Origin: Bacillota bacterium
Lineage (GTDB): Bacteria; Bacillota; Clostridia; Lachnospirales; Lachnospiraceae
Direction of reading: 5' to 3'
DNA length: 10,085 nucleotides
NCBI GenBank assembly: GCA_023398855.1
Contig: JAEWRS010000492.1
Location: 1 to 10,085 of the forward strand
In this document: piece by piece, positions 2,523 to 10,085 of the stretch
Layout: every line of letters starts with the position of its first letter
How positions within the stretch are numbered: position 1 is the stretch's first letter
The notes under the pieces: generated by a model
Databases searched by the model: none
What the model saw: only the letters and a program-made list of their open reading frames with translations
Told to the model about the DNA's origin: nothing
Program-made: the position numbers and the translations under genes

Positions 2523-2558
2523 GTACTGCTATGGACTGAATCAGGTGGGAAATACTTA

Positions 2559-2587
2559 TTGCGCAAAGGGTAATTGGGTGATATTAT
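2559..2587 (+). promoter_or_regulatory. Candidate sigma-A promoter for the polysaccharide operon
   Basis: TTGCGC (2559-2564) and TATTAT (2582-2587) are separated by 17 bases. The -35 matches 4 of 6 and the -10 matches 5 of 6 consensus positions. Transcription would start near 2594, giving a leader of about 90 bases before the dehydrogenase ATG at 2686. No other comparably good pair was noticed in the gap. Confidence 0.45.
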
Positions 2588-2685
2588 ACAACTATCAGAG
2601 ATTTTTCTAGAAATGTTATTTATTTACTTATGATCTGCTTCTGTGCAGCTTACTGCAAGGTGCCATATTGTGAAGGGGAGGAAGT

Positions 2686-3999
2686 ATGACGCTATACGAT
2701 AAAATTATTAATAAAAAAGAAACCATAGCAGTTATTGGGCTGGGGTATGTGGGACTTCCCATTGCCGCAGCATTTTCCAAAAAGGTTAATACCATTGGCT
2801 TTGATATCAACGCAAAAAAGATAAAAGCTTATTCCCTGGGTATTGATGCTACAAATGAGGTAGGGGAAGACCTTAAGAATCTGGACATTGAATTTACTTC
2901 GGATGAAAAAAGGCTGAAGACAGCTAAATTTCTTGTGGTGGCTGTTCCTACTCCCATTCACAAGGATAAGACCCCGGATTTAGAACCATTAACCAGTGCC
3001 TGCCAGATTGTAGGGCGAAATTTGTCAAAGGGAAGTATCGTAGTATTTGAATCCACTGTTTACCCAGGGGTAACAGAGGATATTTGTGTTCCTATATTAG
3101 AGGAGCTGTCAGGGCTGACCTGCGGAAGGGATTTCAAGGTGGGATACTCTCCGGAACGAATTAACCCTGGAGATAAAGTACATATATTAAGCAATATTGT
3201 AAAAATTGTATCAGGAATAGATGATAACACTTTGGAAGAGATTGCCAGGATTTACGAACTGATTATTGAAGCGGGTGTTTACCGTGCAGGAAGTATTAAG
3301 GTTGCGGAGGCAGCCAAATTAGTGGAAAATGCACAGAGAGATATTAATATCGCTTTTATGAATGAATTGGCCGTTGTTTTTGATAAGATGGAGATCAGCA
3401 CAAAGGAAGTGCTGGAGGCTATGAACACGAAATGGAACGCCTTAGGATTTACACCGGGATTAGTTGGCGGCCACTGCATCGGAATCGACCCATATTATTT
3501 TATCTATCAGGCTGAGAGTCTGGGGTATCACTCACAGATTATTTTATCCGGCAGAAAGATTAACGACAGCATGGGGGAATACATAGCTGATATGACGGTT
3601 AAACAGCTGATCAAGGCAAATAAGCTGGTAAAGAATGCGTCTGTTTATATCTTTGGATTTACATTTAAGGAAAACTGTCCGGATATCAGGAATTCTAAGG
3701 TTCTGGATATTGTGGAAAGGCTGAAATCCTATGAGATCTCAGTAAAGGTAGTGGATCCTTATCTTGGAGAACAGGTGGAGAAAGATTACGGGATACAGGT
3801 TGTCAGGGTGGATGAAGTAAGGGGAGCAGATGGGATTATATTTGCTGTTTCTCATAAAGAGTTTTTAGAATTTAATACAGAGCAATTAGGTGGTTTTTTT
3901 GGAGATTTTCCTGATTCGGGAAAAGTTGTTATTGATGTGAAAAACATCTTAAATGGAAAGCAACTGAGGGAATCAGGCTATTTTTATTGGAGTCTTTAA
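2686..3999 (+). CDS. UDP-HexNAc 6-dehydrogenase (TviB/WbpA-type nucleotide sugar dehydrogenase)
   Basis: NAD-dependent nucleotide-sugar 6-dehydrogenase, 437 residues, a normal length for the family. It oxidises C6 of a UDP-sugar to a carboxylate in two steps, supplying an activated uronic acid to a cytosolic polymer synthase. The N-terminal Rossmann fold shows VIGLGYVGLP with the acidic end of strand two in FDIN. Next come the AVPTPI and ESTVYPG segments, the YSPERINPGDK segment, and the central KVAEAAKLVENAQRDINIA helix. The catalytic Cys264 lies in GGHCIGIDPYY. The C-terminal UDP-binding domain has FGFTFKENCPDIRNSK. ERINPGDK, QRDINIA and the CPDIRNS form resemble TviB/WbpA-type UDP-GlcNAc (or GalNAc) dehydrogenases more than UDP-glucose dehydrogenases, but the sugar is inferred. 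The Shine-Dalgarno GGGGAGG (2675-2681) is 4 bases from the ATG. It is probably the first gene of the operon; the next gene follows after 51 bases with no terminator. Confidence 0.88.
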   Translation: MTLYDKIINKKETIAVIGLGYVGLPIAAAFSKKVNTIGFDINAKKIKAYSLGIDATNEVGEDLKNLDIEFTSDEKRLKTAKFLVVAVPTPIHKDKTPDLEPLTSACQIVGRNLSKGSIVVFESTVYPGVTEDICVPILEELSGLTCGRDFKVGYSPERINPGDKVHILSNIVKIVSGIDDNTLEEIARIYELIIEAGVYRAGSIKVAEAAKLVENAQRDINIAFMNELAVVFDKMEISTKEVLEAMNTKWNALGFTPGLVGGHCIGIDPYYFIYQAESLGYHSQIILSGRKINDSMGEYIADMTVKQLIKANKLVKNASVYIFGFTFKENCPDIRNSKVLDIVERLKSYEISVKVVDPYLGEQVEKDYGIQVVRVDEVRGADGIIFAVSHKEFLEFNTEQLGGFFGDFPDSGKVVIDVKNILNGKQLRESGYFYWSL

Positions 4000-4035
4000 A
4001 AAGGAATTATATTGTGATATGGGATAAAATGAAGT

Positions 4036-4042
4036 GAGGTGA
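4036..4042 (+). promoter_or_regulatory. Ribosome binding site that decides the deacetylase-fusion start
   Basis: GAGGTGA matches the 16S anti-Shine-Dalgarno region and lies 8 bases before the ATG at 4051. The alternative GTG at 4039 falls inside this site and has no ribosome binding site of its own, so ATG 4051 is preferred. Confidence 0.7.
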
Positions 4043-4050
4043 CCGAAAGG

Positions 4051-4840
4051 ATGAAAGCTGTTGATGTTCAGTTCAAGATGACAGAGCGCAAAAAGGAAAT
4101 GTTGGAGAAGTCTTGGGCTAAGGATTTTGCGGAGCGATTGTTTCCGATCATTGACGAACGTATATTCTCACCACTTTACGGCAAAAAGGCATCCAGTCCC
4201 AATGAATCTGTAAAAGTTATGGTTGGCGCTTTGGTTTTGAAAGAGCTTCTTGGCATGGCAGATGCAGAATTGCTTGAGTCTGCGATGCTTGACCTTCGCT
4301 TTTCCTATGCCCTTCATGCGGCGGATATTGAGGAATATCTGCTGAATGAAAAGGAATTGTCCAGCTTCCGTTTACGCTGTCACACCCATGAGATCATGAC
4401 CGGCAAAGACTTAATCCGGGAATGCGTCATGGAACTGTCGAAGGAAATGGAAAACCTGACCAAAAAGTATTCCAAAATGATTCCTTTGGAGGCACCGAAG
4501 GTTGCTTCCAATATAAAAAATCTCAGCAGGCTGGAATTCCTATATACTTGTGTTTCAAATCTAGTAGCATGGATCCGCAGTCATGGAGGTGAAGTGCTCC
4601 TTTCCGGCTATGAACGTTATTTTGACAGTGCCGGTTATCATGAATTTATATATCATACCCATAGTGATGAAATTGACTTGATAAGGGAAGAAGTGCTCAA
4701 GGATGCAGAAAACTTAACCATACTCTGCGACAATGGCGATTACGATATGGTAAGTGAATATCAACTTCTGATCCGCGTACTCCTGGAAGAAGCAGTCCCT
4801 GCTGAAAAGGCACCTGTTTCCCCAAAAAACAAGGAGCATA
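4051..4840 (+). mobile_element. IS1182-family transposase N-terminal segment, fused into the deacetylase gene
   Basis: The segment is recognised from the order of conserved stretches: FKMTERKKEMLEKSWA at the start, VGALVLKELLG, LRFSYALH, a degraded SFRLRC segment, VASNIKNLSRLEFLYTCVSN, and SEYQLLIRVL. In the Lachnospiraceae transposases I recall, these occur in the same order before the catalytic core. The GKQH/GKDH-GY core and downstream acidic residues are absent; the frame instead runs into a low-complexity linker. The MDSxM position expected to carry the first catalytic Asp reads LEAPK (E147), so catalysis is unlikely. Arginine codons here are mostly CGN (10 of 12, five CGC), unlike the rest of the gene. 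No inverted repeats or target duplication could be identified. The right boundary is approximate (residues ~250-265). Confidence 0.75.
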
Positions 4841-7800
4841 GGGAACATTCACAAGTAATCAAAGAAGACAAAGTCAGTTCTATTACAAAAGAATTAATGG
4901 ATATGCTATCTCTTGAGGAAGAATCACTGGCCACTCCAGCAGAATCTATTAATACCCCCACGAAAATAAACGGTTTAGGACGGTATGGCGGATATCTGAA
5001 GATAACAGCAGTTTTGCTCACCTTTACTTCTGCCATAGCCATTGCCGCGGCAAAGCTAAAGCCAATGGAAGCAGGCAGTTTTCCTTCTGGACAGATTCTG
5101 TATGATGCTTCCCATGATATAAAGGGCGCGTTTGACCAATTAAAAAACAAAGATCAGAAAGCCCAGATTGCTACGGACGTGGATACCATGAAAAAGGTGG
5201 TCGCCATTAATTTTTTAGGTTCCAGCAATAGTAAAACCAATGATACAGCCCTAAAGCTACTGTCGGAAAACGGTCAGAAGGCTACCTTTATGGTATCCGG
5301 AATGACCGCTGCCGAGGACACTGACTTTATCCTGAAAATAAAAGAACAGGGGAACGAGATCGGCAGCAGCGGATTAAAAGGGGAGAAAGAGTTAGAAAAT
5401 CTGTCCCAAGAGAAATTAATTGAAAATCTTGCAAAGGCAAACCGCATTTTGTATCAGATTACAGGAGAGACGCCAAAGCTTCTTCAGGGGACCCTTCCCC
5501 ATAGCTCCAAGGAGCTTTTAGAAGCGGCCTCTGCATGTGGGTTTGAATATGTGGTGGAGAGCAGGAAATATCTGAATTACCAGAGTTTTACCAGCTATGA
5601 ACAGGCGTTGGATTACGTAAAGGGGCTGAAGTGGGGGAGCATTGTTACGATTAAGATGTCAGGAATACTCAACGAGGCAGAGTATGGGAAACAGGTAGAG
5701 GAAATCTCCACGCAGGAAGATGGGGACAATCCCATCCATGAGGAGGCGGAAAAGGAGAAAGGCAATAAATCAGAAGAAGAGCATCTGATTCAGGTAATAG
5801 GCTGGCTTTCAAAGGCTTTGAAAGAAACAGGGTTTCAAACTGCATTTGCCCAGGAGATCCCTAAATATCAGGATCAGGACTTTGCCATGGATTTTTCTGC
5901 GTTAAGAGAGAAAAACCAGGGGAAGCTTTCCCCAATTTATTCCTCGGGCAGCATAAACGGAGACATTGGCCTGACTTTCAGAGGAATAGGAAGCAAGGAA
6001 AATCTGGATAAAATTTTACTGCTTTTAAAAGAAAACAATCGGAAGGCTACATTCTTTATCACGGGTAAGGAACTGGAAGAATGTGAAGACAGTGTAAAGG
6101 AAATCATAGCCCAGGGCCATGAGATCGGCAATGGAGGTCTGACCGGAAAAGATCTGTCTGATATGGATTTTTCCAGTATCTGTTTTGAAATATATAAAAA
6201 CGACAAATTATTGAAGGAGAAATACGGAGTTGTTACAAAGCTCTTTATGCCTGTTTACGCAAAGTATAATGATTTGGTGCGGGAGGCGGCGTCAGCTCTT
6301 TCTTATGATGTTGTCACTTATACGAAAAATCCAATGGCAGCAGAGAGATCCCCGGAGGAAATAAAAGCATATTTTAAGAAAGGAATCCGTAAGGGAGAGA
6401 TTGTCCACTTCAGGCTGGATGTCAGTGATGATGTGGAAGAGGCGGTGGAATATGTGCTGGGGTATCTGGGTAACAAAAATTACAAGGTTTCTTTTCTCCA
6501 GGAAATGATAAACAATATGCACGATACATCCCGTATACTTCCACCTGCATCTGCATCGTCCAGAGAAGCGGCCGGCAGTGCCATTGATTTTAATCAGGTC
6601 AGGGTTAACAATCAAGGCAGGAAAGCCGAAACAGTTTATACCGTACATAGCACCAGCCAGGAGCTTTCTTTTACTTTTTCAGGGATCAGCCGGACAGAGG
6701 TTTTGTATGATGTGCTGGAAAAGATGGACCAGATTCAGGGAAAAGGCACATTTTTTGTGACAGAGGAAGAGATTGCTCAGAATAAGGAAGAGATCAGACA
6801 GATATTGAACCGGGGGCATGAAATCGGGCTCTGCCTTACGGGTAAAAGTGGTGATAGCTTTAAATCTGTATACCAGAGTCTGATTAACATGCAGGAAAAG
6901 CTAAACAAGGAATTTGGGGTACAGCCTGTACTGGTCAGATACCCTTATGATGCACAGATTACCAGTGAGATGTCAGAAGCCATTGCCAGTGCAGGCTGTA
7001 CGGTGGTATGGCAGGATCTTTCTATGGCAAACTCCAAAGTAGGATCAGACGGAACTCTGGAAGCTGTTTTGTCCAGTTCCTTTCATGCAGGAAATATATC
7101 TGCAAGGAGAGGTTACATTGTCTATTTCCGGATGGATTATTACAATGACAAAAGCCTGATCGGTAATCTGCTTCTGGATGTTTATAAGAACCGGGTTCAG
7201 ACCATTTCCTTTGAAGATGGGGTAGAGAACAACGGATCACAGTACCGTATAGTCAGCGTAGGACAATTGAGGAACAGTCCGGGTATTTATCAGTATCCGG
7301 TAAAAGAAGCTGATTATAAGACAGGGGTAGGCGATATTACTCCAGGGCATATGGCCTGGTTTTCGGAAGCGGAAAAGTTTGAGATCATGAAGAAGCGGTA
7401 TGTGGGAAACCCCGATTACAGCGACGAGAATGTGCTTCCCGGATTTTCCCAGGGAGAATTGAAGCTGATTGATATAACCGGAAGGTTTACTAACGAAAAA
7501 GTGTTATTTTTGACGATTGATGACTGGGGATCCGATAAGCCCATCAACCAGATCTTATATGTACTGAGAAAATATGGGGTCAAGGCAAGCTTTCACGTAA
7601 GGACCAACCGTATTGAGGAGAATCCAAACCTCTTAAGATCCATTGCAGAAGAAGGCCACGATATCGGAACTCACACAGATGGACATCTTCCCTATGCTAT
7701 TTATGATGAGATCAAATCCAGACGGGAAAAGAGGCCGTTTTACAATTCTTTAACCAGCCAGGTTGAGGCAGAAAGAATGGCTGATTTAGCCCTGTCTTAT

Positions 7801-8307
7801 AAAAAACTCTGTTCCGTTGTGGGAGACGTGTCAGCAAACGGAAAGCCTGTGCTGACAAAGATATTCCGTCCCCCGACTCTGGCTATGAGTAAGAACGGCA
7901 TGGAATCTATCTTTGATATGGGATTTGAATACATTGTAAGCGGCGATTTCAGCAGTCATGATTATGAAGCAAAGACGCCCAGGCAACTGGCTGATGAGCT
8001 GTTAAAGGGAATAAAGAGAGGTGACGGATCCAGATATTCTTTGCGTAATGGAAGCGTTATGGTTCTGCATATGTCTGATGATTCCAATGTGCCTTCTGCA
8101 GATCCGGATATTACAGCGAAAGCGTTGGACCTTGTTATCCCCGAATTAATCAATCAGGGTTACCGGTTTGATAAAGTAAGCAACTATTTAACGAAACCAT
8201 TGGAGAAAAGAGCTACACCTGCAGAGGCGGCTGTGGCAGAAACTAAAATAGCAACTGCCAGCGAGCTGAATAGGGATGATAAACAAGATGAATCTTCGTC
8301 GCAATAA
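4051..8307 (+). CDS. Membrane-anchored four-domain polysaccharide deacetylase with transposase-derived N-terminus
   Basis: Chimeric protein of 1418 residues. Residues 1 to ~260 match the N-terminal region of IS1182-family transposases. A linker follows, then one membrane segment at 316-334 (Leu/Ala/Ile-rich, Lys317 before it), so the rest should lie outside the membrane. Four NodB folds follow: D1 ~383-545, an acidic linker, D2 ~639-820, D3 ~871-1058, and D4 ~1150-1375. Only D4 has a full deacetylase site: TIDDW (D1157, D1158), THTDGH (H1208, H1212), FRPP (R1273) and VLHMSD (H1340). In D1-D3 the Asp pair is replaced (NFLGS, TFRGI, TFSGI), as are the His ligands (SSGLKG, GGLTGK, CLTGKS), so they are probably non-catalytic scaffold or sugar-binding modules. 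The likely role is N-deacetylation of the exopolysaccharide made by the flanking dehydrogenase and synthase. The C-terminal ~40 residues are an Ala/Glu-rich tail. It overlaps the next gene by 20 bases. Confidence 0.85.
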   Translation: MKAVDVQFKMTERKKEMLEKSWAKDFAERLFPIIDERIFSPLYGKKASSPNESVKVMVGALVLKELLGMADAELLESAMLDLRFSYALHAADIEEYLLNEKELSSFRLRCHTHEIMTGKDLIRECVMELSKEMENLTKKYSKMIPLEAPKVASNIKNLSRLEFLYTCVSNLVAWIRSHGGEVLLSGYERYFDSAGYHEFIYHTHSDEIDLIREEVLKDAENLTILCDNGDYDMVSEYQLLIRVLLEEAVPAEKAPVSPKNKEHREHSQVIKEDKVSSITKELMDMLSLEEESLATPAESINTPTKINGLGRYGGYLKITAVLLTFTSAIAIAAAKLKPMEAGSFPSGQILYDASHDIKGAFDQLKNKDQKAQIATDVDTMKKVVAINFLGSSNSKTNDTALKLLSENGQKATFMVSGMTAAEDTDFILKIKEQGNEIGSSGLKGEKELENLSQEKLIENLAKANRILYQITGETPKLLQGTLPHSSKELLEAASACGFEYVVESRKYLNYQSFTSYEQALDYVKGLKWGSIVTIKMSGILNEAEYGKQVEEISTQEDGDNPIHEEAEKEKGNKSEEEHLIQVIGWLSKALKETGFQTAFAQEIPKYQDQDFAMDFSALREKNQGKLSPIYSSGSINGDIGLTFRGIGSKENLDKILLLLKENNRKATFFITGKELEECEDSVKEIIAQGHEIGNGGLTGKDLSDMDFSSICFEIYKNDKLLKEKYGVVTKLFMPVYAKYNDLVREAASALSYDVVTYTKNPMAAERSPEEIKAYFKKGIRKGEIVHFRLDVSDDVEEAVEYVLGYLGNKNYKVSFLQEMINNMHDTSRILPPASASSREAAGSAIDFNQVRVNNQGRKAETVYTVHSTSQELSFTFSGISRTEVLYDVLEKMDQIQGKGTFFVTEEEIAQNKEEIRQILNRGHEIGLCLTGKSGDSFKSVYQSLINMQEKLNKEFGVQPVLVRYPYDAQITSEMSEAIASAGCTVVWQDLSMANSKVGSDGTLEAVLSSSFHAGNISARRGYIVYFRMDYYNDKSLIGNLLLDVYKNRVQTISFEDGVENNGSQYRIVSVGQLRNSPGIYQYPVKEADYKTGVGDITPGHMAWFSEAEKFEIMKKRYVGNPDYSDENVLPGFSQGELKLIDITGRFTNEKVLFLTIDDWGSDKPINQILYVLRKYGVKASFHVRTNRIEENPNLLRSIAEEGHDIGTHTDGHLPYAIYDEIKSRREKRPFYNSLTSQVEAERMADLALSYKKLCSVVGDVSANGKPVLTKIFRPPTLAMSKNGMESIFDMGFEYIVSGDFSSHDYEAKTPRQLADELLKGIKRGDGSRYSLRNGSVMVLHMSDDSNVPSADPDITAKALDLVIPELINQGYRFDKVSNYLTKPLEKRATPAEAAVAETKIATASELNRDDKQDESSSQ

Positions 8308-10085
8308 AAAAGGAAAAGGACAGGTTTCAGAGGACGTTCTACTGAAATTAAAAGATGACAGAAGGATGCTGTCCAATGTTCCGGATAAGACCAATGTTAG
8401 GACTAATGTTGACAGGAGGGGGAAAAATTACGGCAGCAGCAATATTAATGAGTATATTGCACAGAAACAGGCAGGATTAAGATACAAGATTGATTATGAT
8501 GTGGAAGTGATATGCACTTTAGGAAAGACGAAGAAAAGCATGGTCTGCAAAGGTGTGGACATTTCCATGACAGGAATTTTATTAATGGTACCTACCAGGG
8601 AAGCGATGGAAACGCTGAAGAAAGCAGATAAAGTCCTGCTCAAATTTGAGATCCTGCCAGGGACCTTGCCTGAAGGGCTGGAAATGAAGGTTAAAACCGA
8701 TGCTTCCATTGCCAGGGTCCAGCTGCTGGAGGATTCCACTTTTCACTGTGGATTTCTTTTTGGCATGCCCCTGTCCCTTTATTCCTCAAAGAAAAAGGGC
8801 AGGTATATGTTGATGATATCAAGCATGCTGTTGTTTTTTATCAGTATTTTTGTAATTCTCATGCGTGCTGAAAGCGTAATTTATTTCAGATTTAATAAAA
8901 TACTGTATTTGTACAGTATTATGGCTGCCGTGTTTTTACTTAGCCGTTATTTGTTTGGGGCATTGTACAGGGAAATTCCCCTTGATGTTGATTTTACACC
9001 GGGAGTGACGGTGCTGATTCCCTGTTTTAATGAGGAGGAATGGATACAAAGGACCATTCTTAGCTGTATTAATCAGGATTATCCTGCGGATAAGCTGGAA
9101 GTTATTATCATTGATGACTGCTCCAGCGATAAGTCTGTGGAAAAAATAGATGAAATTGTCCAAAGGCTTTACCGGGAGGGGGAGCAGTTTGAAACCAGAT
9201 CCAGGCTGAAATATATCGTGTTAGAGAAGAACTCAGGAAAGAGGGAAGCTCTGGCGGCGGGCGCTGTGGAGGCAAAGCATGAGCTTTTGGTATTCGTGGA
9301 TTCAGACAGTTTCTTAGACCCTTTTGCCATCAGGAACCTGGTACAGCCATTTAAGGATCCCAAAATGGGAGGGGTGTCCGGGAGGACGGATGTAGCCAAT
9401 ACCTATACCAACGGCCTGACAAAGATGCAGTCAGTCAGGTATTACATCGCCTTTCGGATTTTGAAAGCTGCGGAAGCTTATTTTGACGTAGTTACCTGCT
9501 TGTCAGGTCCTCTGGCCTGCTATAAAAAGCAGATTGTCATGGACAATCTGGATCGCTGGCTGAATCAAAGCTTTTTAGGCCAGAAGGCAACCTTTGGGGA
9601 TGACCGGGCTATGACCAACTTTGTTTTAAAACACCACAGGACATCGTATCAGGACAGTGCAGTCTGCCAGACCATAGTTCCTAATAAATATAAGGTGTTT
9701 TTAAAACAGCAGATGAGATGGAAACGTTCCTGGCTGAGAGAATCATTAATTGCAGGAAGCTATATGTTTAGAAAGGAACCATTTGCAGCGGTCCTCTTTT
9801 ATATCGGTCTGCTTGTGCCTGTTTTGGCCCCGCTTGTTGTTTTGTATAATCTGGTTTATGTTCCGATCACCCGCCATGTGTTCCCAACCACATTTCTGGT
9901 AGGTCTTCTGCTGATGGCATTTCTGATGAGTATGGCCCAGATGCTGCTGCGAAGAAGCACCACCTGGATTTTTGGCCTGGTCTTTTGTCTGTACTATGAA
10001 GCGGTTTTGCTTTGGCAGATGCCGGTTGCGTGGGTCACTTTCTGGAAATCCACCTGGGGGACCAGAATGACTCAAAGTGATGTAG
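8288..10085 (+). CDS. PilZ-like/family 2 processive glycosyltransferase, hyaluronan-synthase-like (3' truncated)
   Basis: Membrane polysaccharide synthase; 599 codons are visible and the frame is open at the window edge. Residues ~60-165 resemble a PilZ (c-di-GMP) domain: R65 before a YKIDYDVEV strand, then DISMTG (91-96, the D/NxSxxG motif) and CGFLFG. Membrane segments lie at ~174-192 and ~205-226, then the GT2 domain: IPCFNEEE (244-251), IIDDCS (D276, D277), VDSDS (D338, D340), CLSGPL (404-409), GDDR (437-440, candidate catalytic Asp) and QQMRW (474-478, the QxxRW motif). Further membrane segments are at ~500-525, 533-553 and 560-580, then WGTR (590-593) as near the end of hyaluronan synthases and NodC. 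It would polymerise UDP-sugars and extrude the chain. ATG 8288 is chosen with AGGGA 11-12 bases upstream (weak); ATG 8276, in frame, is an alternative. It overlaps the deacetylase gene by 20 bases, implying co-translation. Exact polymer unknown. Confidence 0.87.
   Translation, partial: MNLRRNKKGKGQVSEDVLLKLKDDRRMLSNVPDKTNVRTNVDRRGKNYGSSNINEYIAQKQAGLRYKIDYDVEVICTLGKTKKSMVCKGVDISMTGILLMVPTREAMETLKKADKVLLKFEILPGTLPEGLEMKVKTDASIARVQLLEDSTFHCGFLFGMPLSLYSSKKKGRYMLMISSMLLFFISIFVILMRAESVIYFRFNKILYLYSIMAAVFLLSRYLFGALYREIPLDVDFTPGVTVLIPCFNEEEWIQRTILSCINQDYPADKLEVIIIDDCSSDKSVEKIDEIVQRLYREGEQFETRSRLKYIVLEKNSGKREALAAGAVEAKHELLVFVDSDSFLDPFAIRNLVQPFKDPKMGGVSGRTDVANTYTNGLTKMQSVRYYIAFRILKAAEAYFDVVTCLSGPLACYKKQIVMDNLDRWLNQSFLGQKATFGDDRAMTNFVLKHHRTSYQDSAVCQTIVPNKYKVFLKQQMRWKRSWLRESLIAGSYMFRKEPFAAVLFYIGLLVPVLAPLVVLYNLVYVPITRHVFPTTFLVGLLLMAFLMSMAQMLLRRSTTWIFGLVFCLYYEAVLLWQMPVAWVTFWKSTWGTRMTQSDV

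Follow-up and report, generated by a model that had tools for sequence, protein, structure and literature searches.

A conserved in-frame fusion of an IS1182-type transposase N-terminal region to a membrane-anchored NodB-like deacetylase

Background

Nuclease-dead TnpB repressors and Cas1 are domesticated bacterial transposon proteins, and they resemble the case described here in that a mobile-element protein has been taken over by the host. To our knowledge these proteins belong to other families, and none is the N-terminal domain of a DDE transposase fused to a metabolic or surface enzyme. Host-transposase fusions have been described in eukaryotes; according to the summaries of the papers concerned, CSB-PGBD3 (PMC3459987), SETMAR (PMC9062482) and F-box genes with a Tc1/Mariner HTH (PMC12062965) each carry a transposase domain that was captured onto a host protein and retained. 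The present case is similar in this respect but, as far as those summaries go, differs in being bacterial, in resulting from a genomic join and not from splicing, in involving an IS1182 domain, and in having carbohydrate enzymes as hosts instead of nuclear proteins. A literature search, a weak one confined to titles and the first part of abstracts of open-licence papers, returned no bacterial enzyme with a DUF772 or IS1182 domain and no report of a deacetylase or GH2 fusion of this kind; the transposase-domain captures it turned up were eukaryotic only.

The closest described relatives of the gene reported here are the IS1182-family transposases and the unfused CE4/NodB deacetylases of clostridial exopolysaccharide operons. 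The former contain the PF05598/DUF772 region with the same order of conserved blocks, whereas in our protein the transposase part ends short of the second Asp and the Glu of the triad and belongs to a host enzyme. The latter (P0005, P0006) share the NodB-like repeats, the anchor and the operon neighbours, but start at the anchor, without a transposase domain. DUF772 is associated with DDE domains (PMC12804078), and according to a further study programmed frameshifting can split genes of the IS1182 family that contain DUF772, at up to 24% in tests (PMC3711429). The front part of such transposases may therefore also be made as a separate product, which would fit a separable domain.

Organization of the locus

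The window, which is the whole stretch of DNA analysed, is 10,085 bp in length and comes from a Bacillota bacterium of the Lachnospiraceae (contig JAEWRS010000492.1). Its genes are those for an adenine deaminase (end only), an amidohydrolase, a nucleotide-sugar dehydrogenase, the fusion protein and a PilZ-GT2 protein, and all features given below are on the forward strand. The dehydrogenase gene (bp 2686 to 3999), which precedes the fusion, was identified by its Pfam UDPG_MGDP_dh domains and by NCBIfam TIGR03026 (378 bits, cut-off 189.8). The PilZ-GT2 glycosyltransferase gene (bp 8276 to 10084), likely encoding a synthase, overlaps the 3' end of the fusion gene and is cut off where the window stops; its GT2 families scored above cut-off and its PilZ match was weak (19 bits, cut-off 22.5). 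The sequence beyond the window's end was read in genome G008, which is colinear with the window (87% DNA identity over bp 2532 to 9975), and encodes a protein with weak deacetylase similarity (17.7 bits, cut-off 23.1) and one with weak GH18 similarity (27.1, cut-off 29.6).

Downstream of the deacetylase, relatives of the PilZ-GT2 gene and of the gene next after it in G008 (605 aa) were present at all 30 loci examined, and relatives of a 373-aa gene at 25 of the 30. The dehydrogenase preceded the deacetylase at 13 of these loci, many contigs ending there. Relatives of the deacetylase, PilZ-GT2 and weakly deacetylase-like genes were found together at 30/30 loci, with the GH18-like gene at 25/30. 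Judged by its gene content, this grouping is a widespread exopolysaccharide-type operon, and the window locus looks like a c-di-GMP-responsive one, its PilZ match being below the cut-off of that family.

The fusion gene is open from an ATG at bp 4051 to a stop at bp 8307 and encodes 1418 amino acids; a GTG at bp 4039 is in frame with the ATG. A likely ribosome binding site, GAGGTGA (bp 4036 to 4042), was read 8 bases before the ATG, and the same sequence lies 7-8 bases ahead of the aligned ATG in G008 and in Lacrimispora celerecrescens 152B (G001). In the protein, the transposase sequence is joined by a linker to a membrane helix, after which come four NodB domains. Residues 1-140 (bp 4051 to 4470) were assigned by homology to an IS1182-type transposase N-domain (DUF772 region). 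Alignments place the position of the first catalytic Asp (here E147) and the transposase helical insert in residues 141-265 (bp 4471 to 4845), recognisable transposase homology stopping at about residue 265-270. The next 43 residues, 266-308 (bp 4846 to 4974), form a fast-evolving linker, as seen in pairwise identities of 54-77% for residues 251-308 across the three pairs compared. Residues 309-336 (bp 4975 to 5058) hold the deacetylase's membrane helix and its original start, the point at which unfused orthologues begin; the structure model has a helix at 315-335, with pLDDT under 50. The four NodB-like domains (bp 5059 to 8304) were matched by PF01522 in four stretches, well above the Pfam cut-off (206 bits against 23.1; E 1.4e-61). 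A motif scan located TIDD (residues 1155-1158) and HTDGH (residues 1208-1212) solely in the fourth domain, TxDD and HTxxH motifs being absent from the first three (bp 5059 to 7450). The other three fused proteins likewise have TxDD and HTxxH once each, in the fourth NodB domain. We take TxDD and H(S/T)xxH to be the CE4 metal-binding motifs.

Transposase homology of the N-terminal part

At E <= 1e-3, 33 of 1006 candidate proteins matched residues 1-252. The best match was P0086, a 534-aa IS1182-type transposase (E 1.6e-70, 52% identity, 98% coverage of residues 1-252), and the conserved blocks occur in the order found in IS1182-type transposases. A DDE transposase domain (PF13751 and/or PF01609) was present in 27 of the 33 matches, 25 of which also had PF05598. 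Library models scored weakly on the N-terminal part: 19 bits for the DUF772 HMM (cut-off 23.1), and 18.8 and 19.1 bits for the curated IS1182 and IS5 models (cut-offs 270 and 275). An earlier note, made from the sequence alone, had described a transposase N-terminal region fused in frame to a deacetylase, and when the N-terminal part was searched separately the similarity was overwhelming. That note had also considered the catalytic core absent. This holds for the second-Asp and Glu parts, which are gone in the fused proteins so that no complete DDE triad is found, but not for the first-Asp strand segment, which survives with E at position 147 in the window and D in the other three fused proteins.

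The fused proteins lack the first 10 or so transposase residues. Conservation was scored against 31 transposase sequences, of which 26 have 500 aa or more and 5 are shorter. Among the positions conserved in 90% or more of these and lost in all four fused proteins are R49, P53, N55, Q96, P97 and R105; R49 (30/31 transposases) is replaced by S or G, and R105 (31/31) by S or C. W22, F26, F31, P32 and D81 are retained. The calculated pI of residues 8-140 is 5.0-5.7 in the fused proteins, and the transposases are acidic too. The structure model, which is of modest confidence overall (mean pLDDT 63.6), is helical over residues 12-140, where block pLDDT is mostly 60-92. In the P0086 model, matches to integrase-like cores begin at P0086 residue 149, and the fusion model has a helix where that model has the first core strand. 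The fusion model gave no match to solved structures.

Origin and distribution of the fusion

Residues 312-1418 were similar to 85 proteins, and the N-termini of 35 of these (4 fused, 31 unfused) were inspected. The 31 unfused orthologues begin at or beside the membrane helix, level with window residue ~309; P0028 has its start inside the helix, and P0033, though inspected, was not part of the alignment. This agrees with the native start that the earlier note had proposed near the membrane segment. The unfused orthologues occupy the same operon slot as the fusion. At the six unfused loci printed the deacetylase apparently starts 15-24 bases past the dehydrogenase stop, compared with a gap of 51 bases before ATG 4051 in the window, and from this gap and the start position the extension sits at the old deacetylase start.

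When residues 1-300 were compared with proteins of comparable length, four matches were obtained at E <= 0.01 among 2559 candidates: the window's own cluster and clusters of 19, 67 and 3 members. All four align end to end, P0002-P0004 keeping the whole fusion at 77-86% overall. A tree was computed by a quick method for 40 orthologues over 1000 aa, with the N-terminal part left out, and in it the four fused proteins formed one clade (SH-aLRT 100), sister to the unfused P0005/P0006. In an N-domain tree of 70 rows, rooted at the midpoint, they again formed one clade (100/100), within the transposases and branching internally in the same order; the branch that encloses them together with 19 transposases was starred, and P0086 and P0097 were less certain as their exact neighbours (86/85). 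The fused N-domains are set off by a long branch (0.87), with little change afterwards. As in an exapted host-transposase fusion, then, the transposase part is in frame in several genomes and of common origin (four clusters, one clade in both trees), which supports a single capture in the ancestor of a Lacrimispora-like lineage.

Among the 30 loci examined, of 80 kept in the genome scan, that of L. celerecrescens 152B was the only one with the N-terminal part. Within the genus of this species the N-terminal part matched 3 of 25 genomes (G001, G008 and G019), the match in G019 being weak (33%) and containing internal stop codons. Strong matches to the NodB part were obtained solely in G001 and G008, where the gene is fused; those in the other 23 genomes were no better than 1.5e-11, and we take them to be other deacetylases. 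In G008 a 1422-aa frame is intact on a contig of 6,383,701 bases. In 152B (L001/L140, bp 14113 to 18323) a frame change beyond codon 521 or so breaks the gene into two overlapping frames (525 and 911 aa), due either to a sequencing error or to a real break. That split is the one observation in keeping with an assembly join or pseudogene debris. The same junction, however, recurs in four protein clusters and is intact on the 6.38-Mb contig of G008, and the open frame is under strong purifying selection; given these conserved orthologues, an artefact or debris was rejected for the window's lineage, its probability being negligible. The sequence comparisons confirm the fusion as real, conserved and old.

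Selection on the fused gene

Pairwise dN/dS values were obtained by the Nei-Gojobori method from few pairs, which share members and are not independent. Between the window and G008, dN/dS was 0.042 for residues 1-140 (dS 0.51), 0.20 for 141-250, 0.22 for 251-308, 0.16 for 309-336 and 0.098 for the ectodomain, against 0.064 for the neighbouring dehydrogenase and 0.107 for the GT2. Between the window and G001 the values were 0.036 for 1-140, 0.22 for 141-250, 0.44 for 251-308, 0.09 for 309-336 and 0.105-0.141 for NodB2-4, NodB1 being excluded since the G001 gene is split. Between G008 and G001 they were 0.059 for 1-140, 0.14 for 141-250 and 0.050 for 309-336. Residues 1-140 were therefore under purifying selection in 3/3 pairs (0.036-0.059) and were the most constrained part measured in both window comparisons, whereas in the G008-G001 pair residues 309-336 were lower still. 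Residues 141-250 were less constrained throughout (0.14-0.22). A low dN/dS is a sign of constraint, not of its cause; it gives indirect support, from sequence, to the earlier suggestion that the gene is expressed and not debris.

A GH2 beta-galactosidase fusion

The family search also led, through one match, to a 1283-aa frame in which a transposase N-domain is followed by a LacZ-type enzyme. In its G777 orthologue DUF772 exceeds the Pfam cut-off (28.7 bits; cut-off 23.1), and so do five GH2/LacZ families. Of 61 genomes of another genus in the family, taken from a larger group, 26 carried the fusion frame (L142 in G292, L163-L186 and L200; L169 and L200 run into contig ends). Several unfused GH2 genes (e.g. 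L187-L189) start just before a block like FDxxIVxDP, which also follows the linker in the fusions. G774 has one fused and one unfused GH2 gene, so some unfused GH2 genes are paralogues. A branch in the N-domain tree (100/94) separates the 26 GH2-fusion N-domains from both the transposases and the deacetylase fusions. The GH2 fusion is apparently a second, independent capture, the tree needing two captures if transposases are ancestral. In all 10 pairs more than 75% identical, dN/dS was lower for residues 1-145 (0.015-0.142) than for the GH2 part (0.072-0.236), although the pairs share members and one differs by only 0.003. The two captures may work differently, since R105, P53 and N55 are mostly kept in the GH2 fusions and lost in the deacetylase fusions.

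Possible role of the captured domain

Homology, synteny and trees support a capture in which an IS1182-type N-terminal part of ~265 residues took the place of the original beginning of a membrane-anchored deacetylase within an exopolysaccharide operon. The deacetylase would have kept its anchor helix, which unfused orthologues carry at their start, so the 308 added residues should face the cytoplasm, with the NodB domains outside. Purifying selection suggests that the captured domain is a working part of the host enzyme. Transposition would have been lost, and probably recognition of IS ends as well. Several polar conserved positions are lost, but many others, mostly hydrophobic or structural in appearance, are kept, and for this reason a helical module for self-association or docking is preferred, which would place the deacetylase at the synthase complex; the argument for docking to the synthase, the preferred mechanism, is one of operon logic. 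As a whole, a single capture whose product now serves an exopolysaccharide deacetylase as a cytoplasmic module for self-association or docking seems to us about an even bet.

The N-terminal part of a transposase commonly binds the ends of its element, and the captured domain might still bind DNA, as a membrane-tethered regulator or, in the beta-galactosidase fusions, as part of a gene-regulating enzyme. The same domain was apparently captured twice, and the GH2 fusions keep R105 in 25/26 and P53 and N55 in 26/26; R49, on the other hand, is kept in just 13/26 of them, and R49, P53, N55, Q96, P97 and R105 are all replaced in the window's lineage. A contact of R49 and R105 with DNA is a guess, and charge does not decide, the acidic pI being common to fused proteins and transposases. 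We consider DNA binding unlikely on balance. A broader version, equally doubtful in our estimation, makes the IS1182 N-domain a portable bacterial module, captured at least twice by hosts in making new enzymes, that has kept its recognition of DNA or of a conserved partner and thereby links a carbohydrate enzyme to gene control; the fusions would then be bacterial counterparts of eukaryotic transposase capture. Nor do we favour the idea, improbable to a similar degree, that the extension is a passive passenger which once supplied a start and now need only fold for production and insertion. Folding by itself imposes constraint, and residues 141-308 do evolve faster, but residues 1-140 are more constrained than the enzyme in both window comparisons, as are residues 1-145 in 10/10 GH2 pairs (one by only 0.003), and the many orthologues without the extension indicate that the enzyme as such does not need it. 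It is most improbable that the domain was kept as a trans-acting inhibitor poisoning multimerisation or end binding of incoming IS1182 elements: in the genus search neither fusion-bearing genome had a second N-region match at E <= 1e-3, but 22 of the 23 other genomes were also without a match, so this absence is uninformative, and before it settled the fused domain had moved far from the transposases in sequence.

In the deacetylase fusions a bacterial DDE transposase has been stripped of most of its catalytic core, and its N-domain is now the best-preserved part of a surface-polysaccharide enzyme (in both window comparisons), while a beta-galactosidase carries a domain of this kind in the other genus. 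The fusions offer a tractable bacterial system in which to ask why a transposase N-domain is kept on a metabolic enzyme, and they show that a truncated IS gene need not be debris.

IS1182-type elements in other genomes

In G307 and G257 (L197 and L198) an IS1182-type transposase is present in several frames, with the same neighbours in both genomes and a shared first piece of 131 aa; either decay or programmed frameshifting (compare PMC3711429) may account for this arrangement. In genome G1034 the IS1182-type N-domain has ten matches of equal score, each within a frame of 570 aa, and the element is apparently active there.
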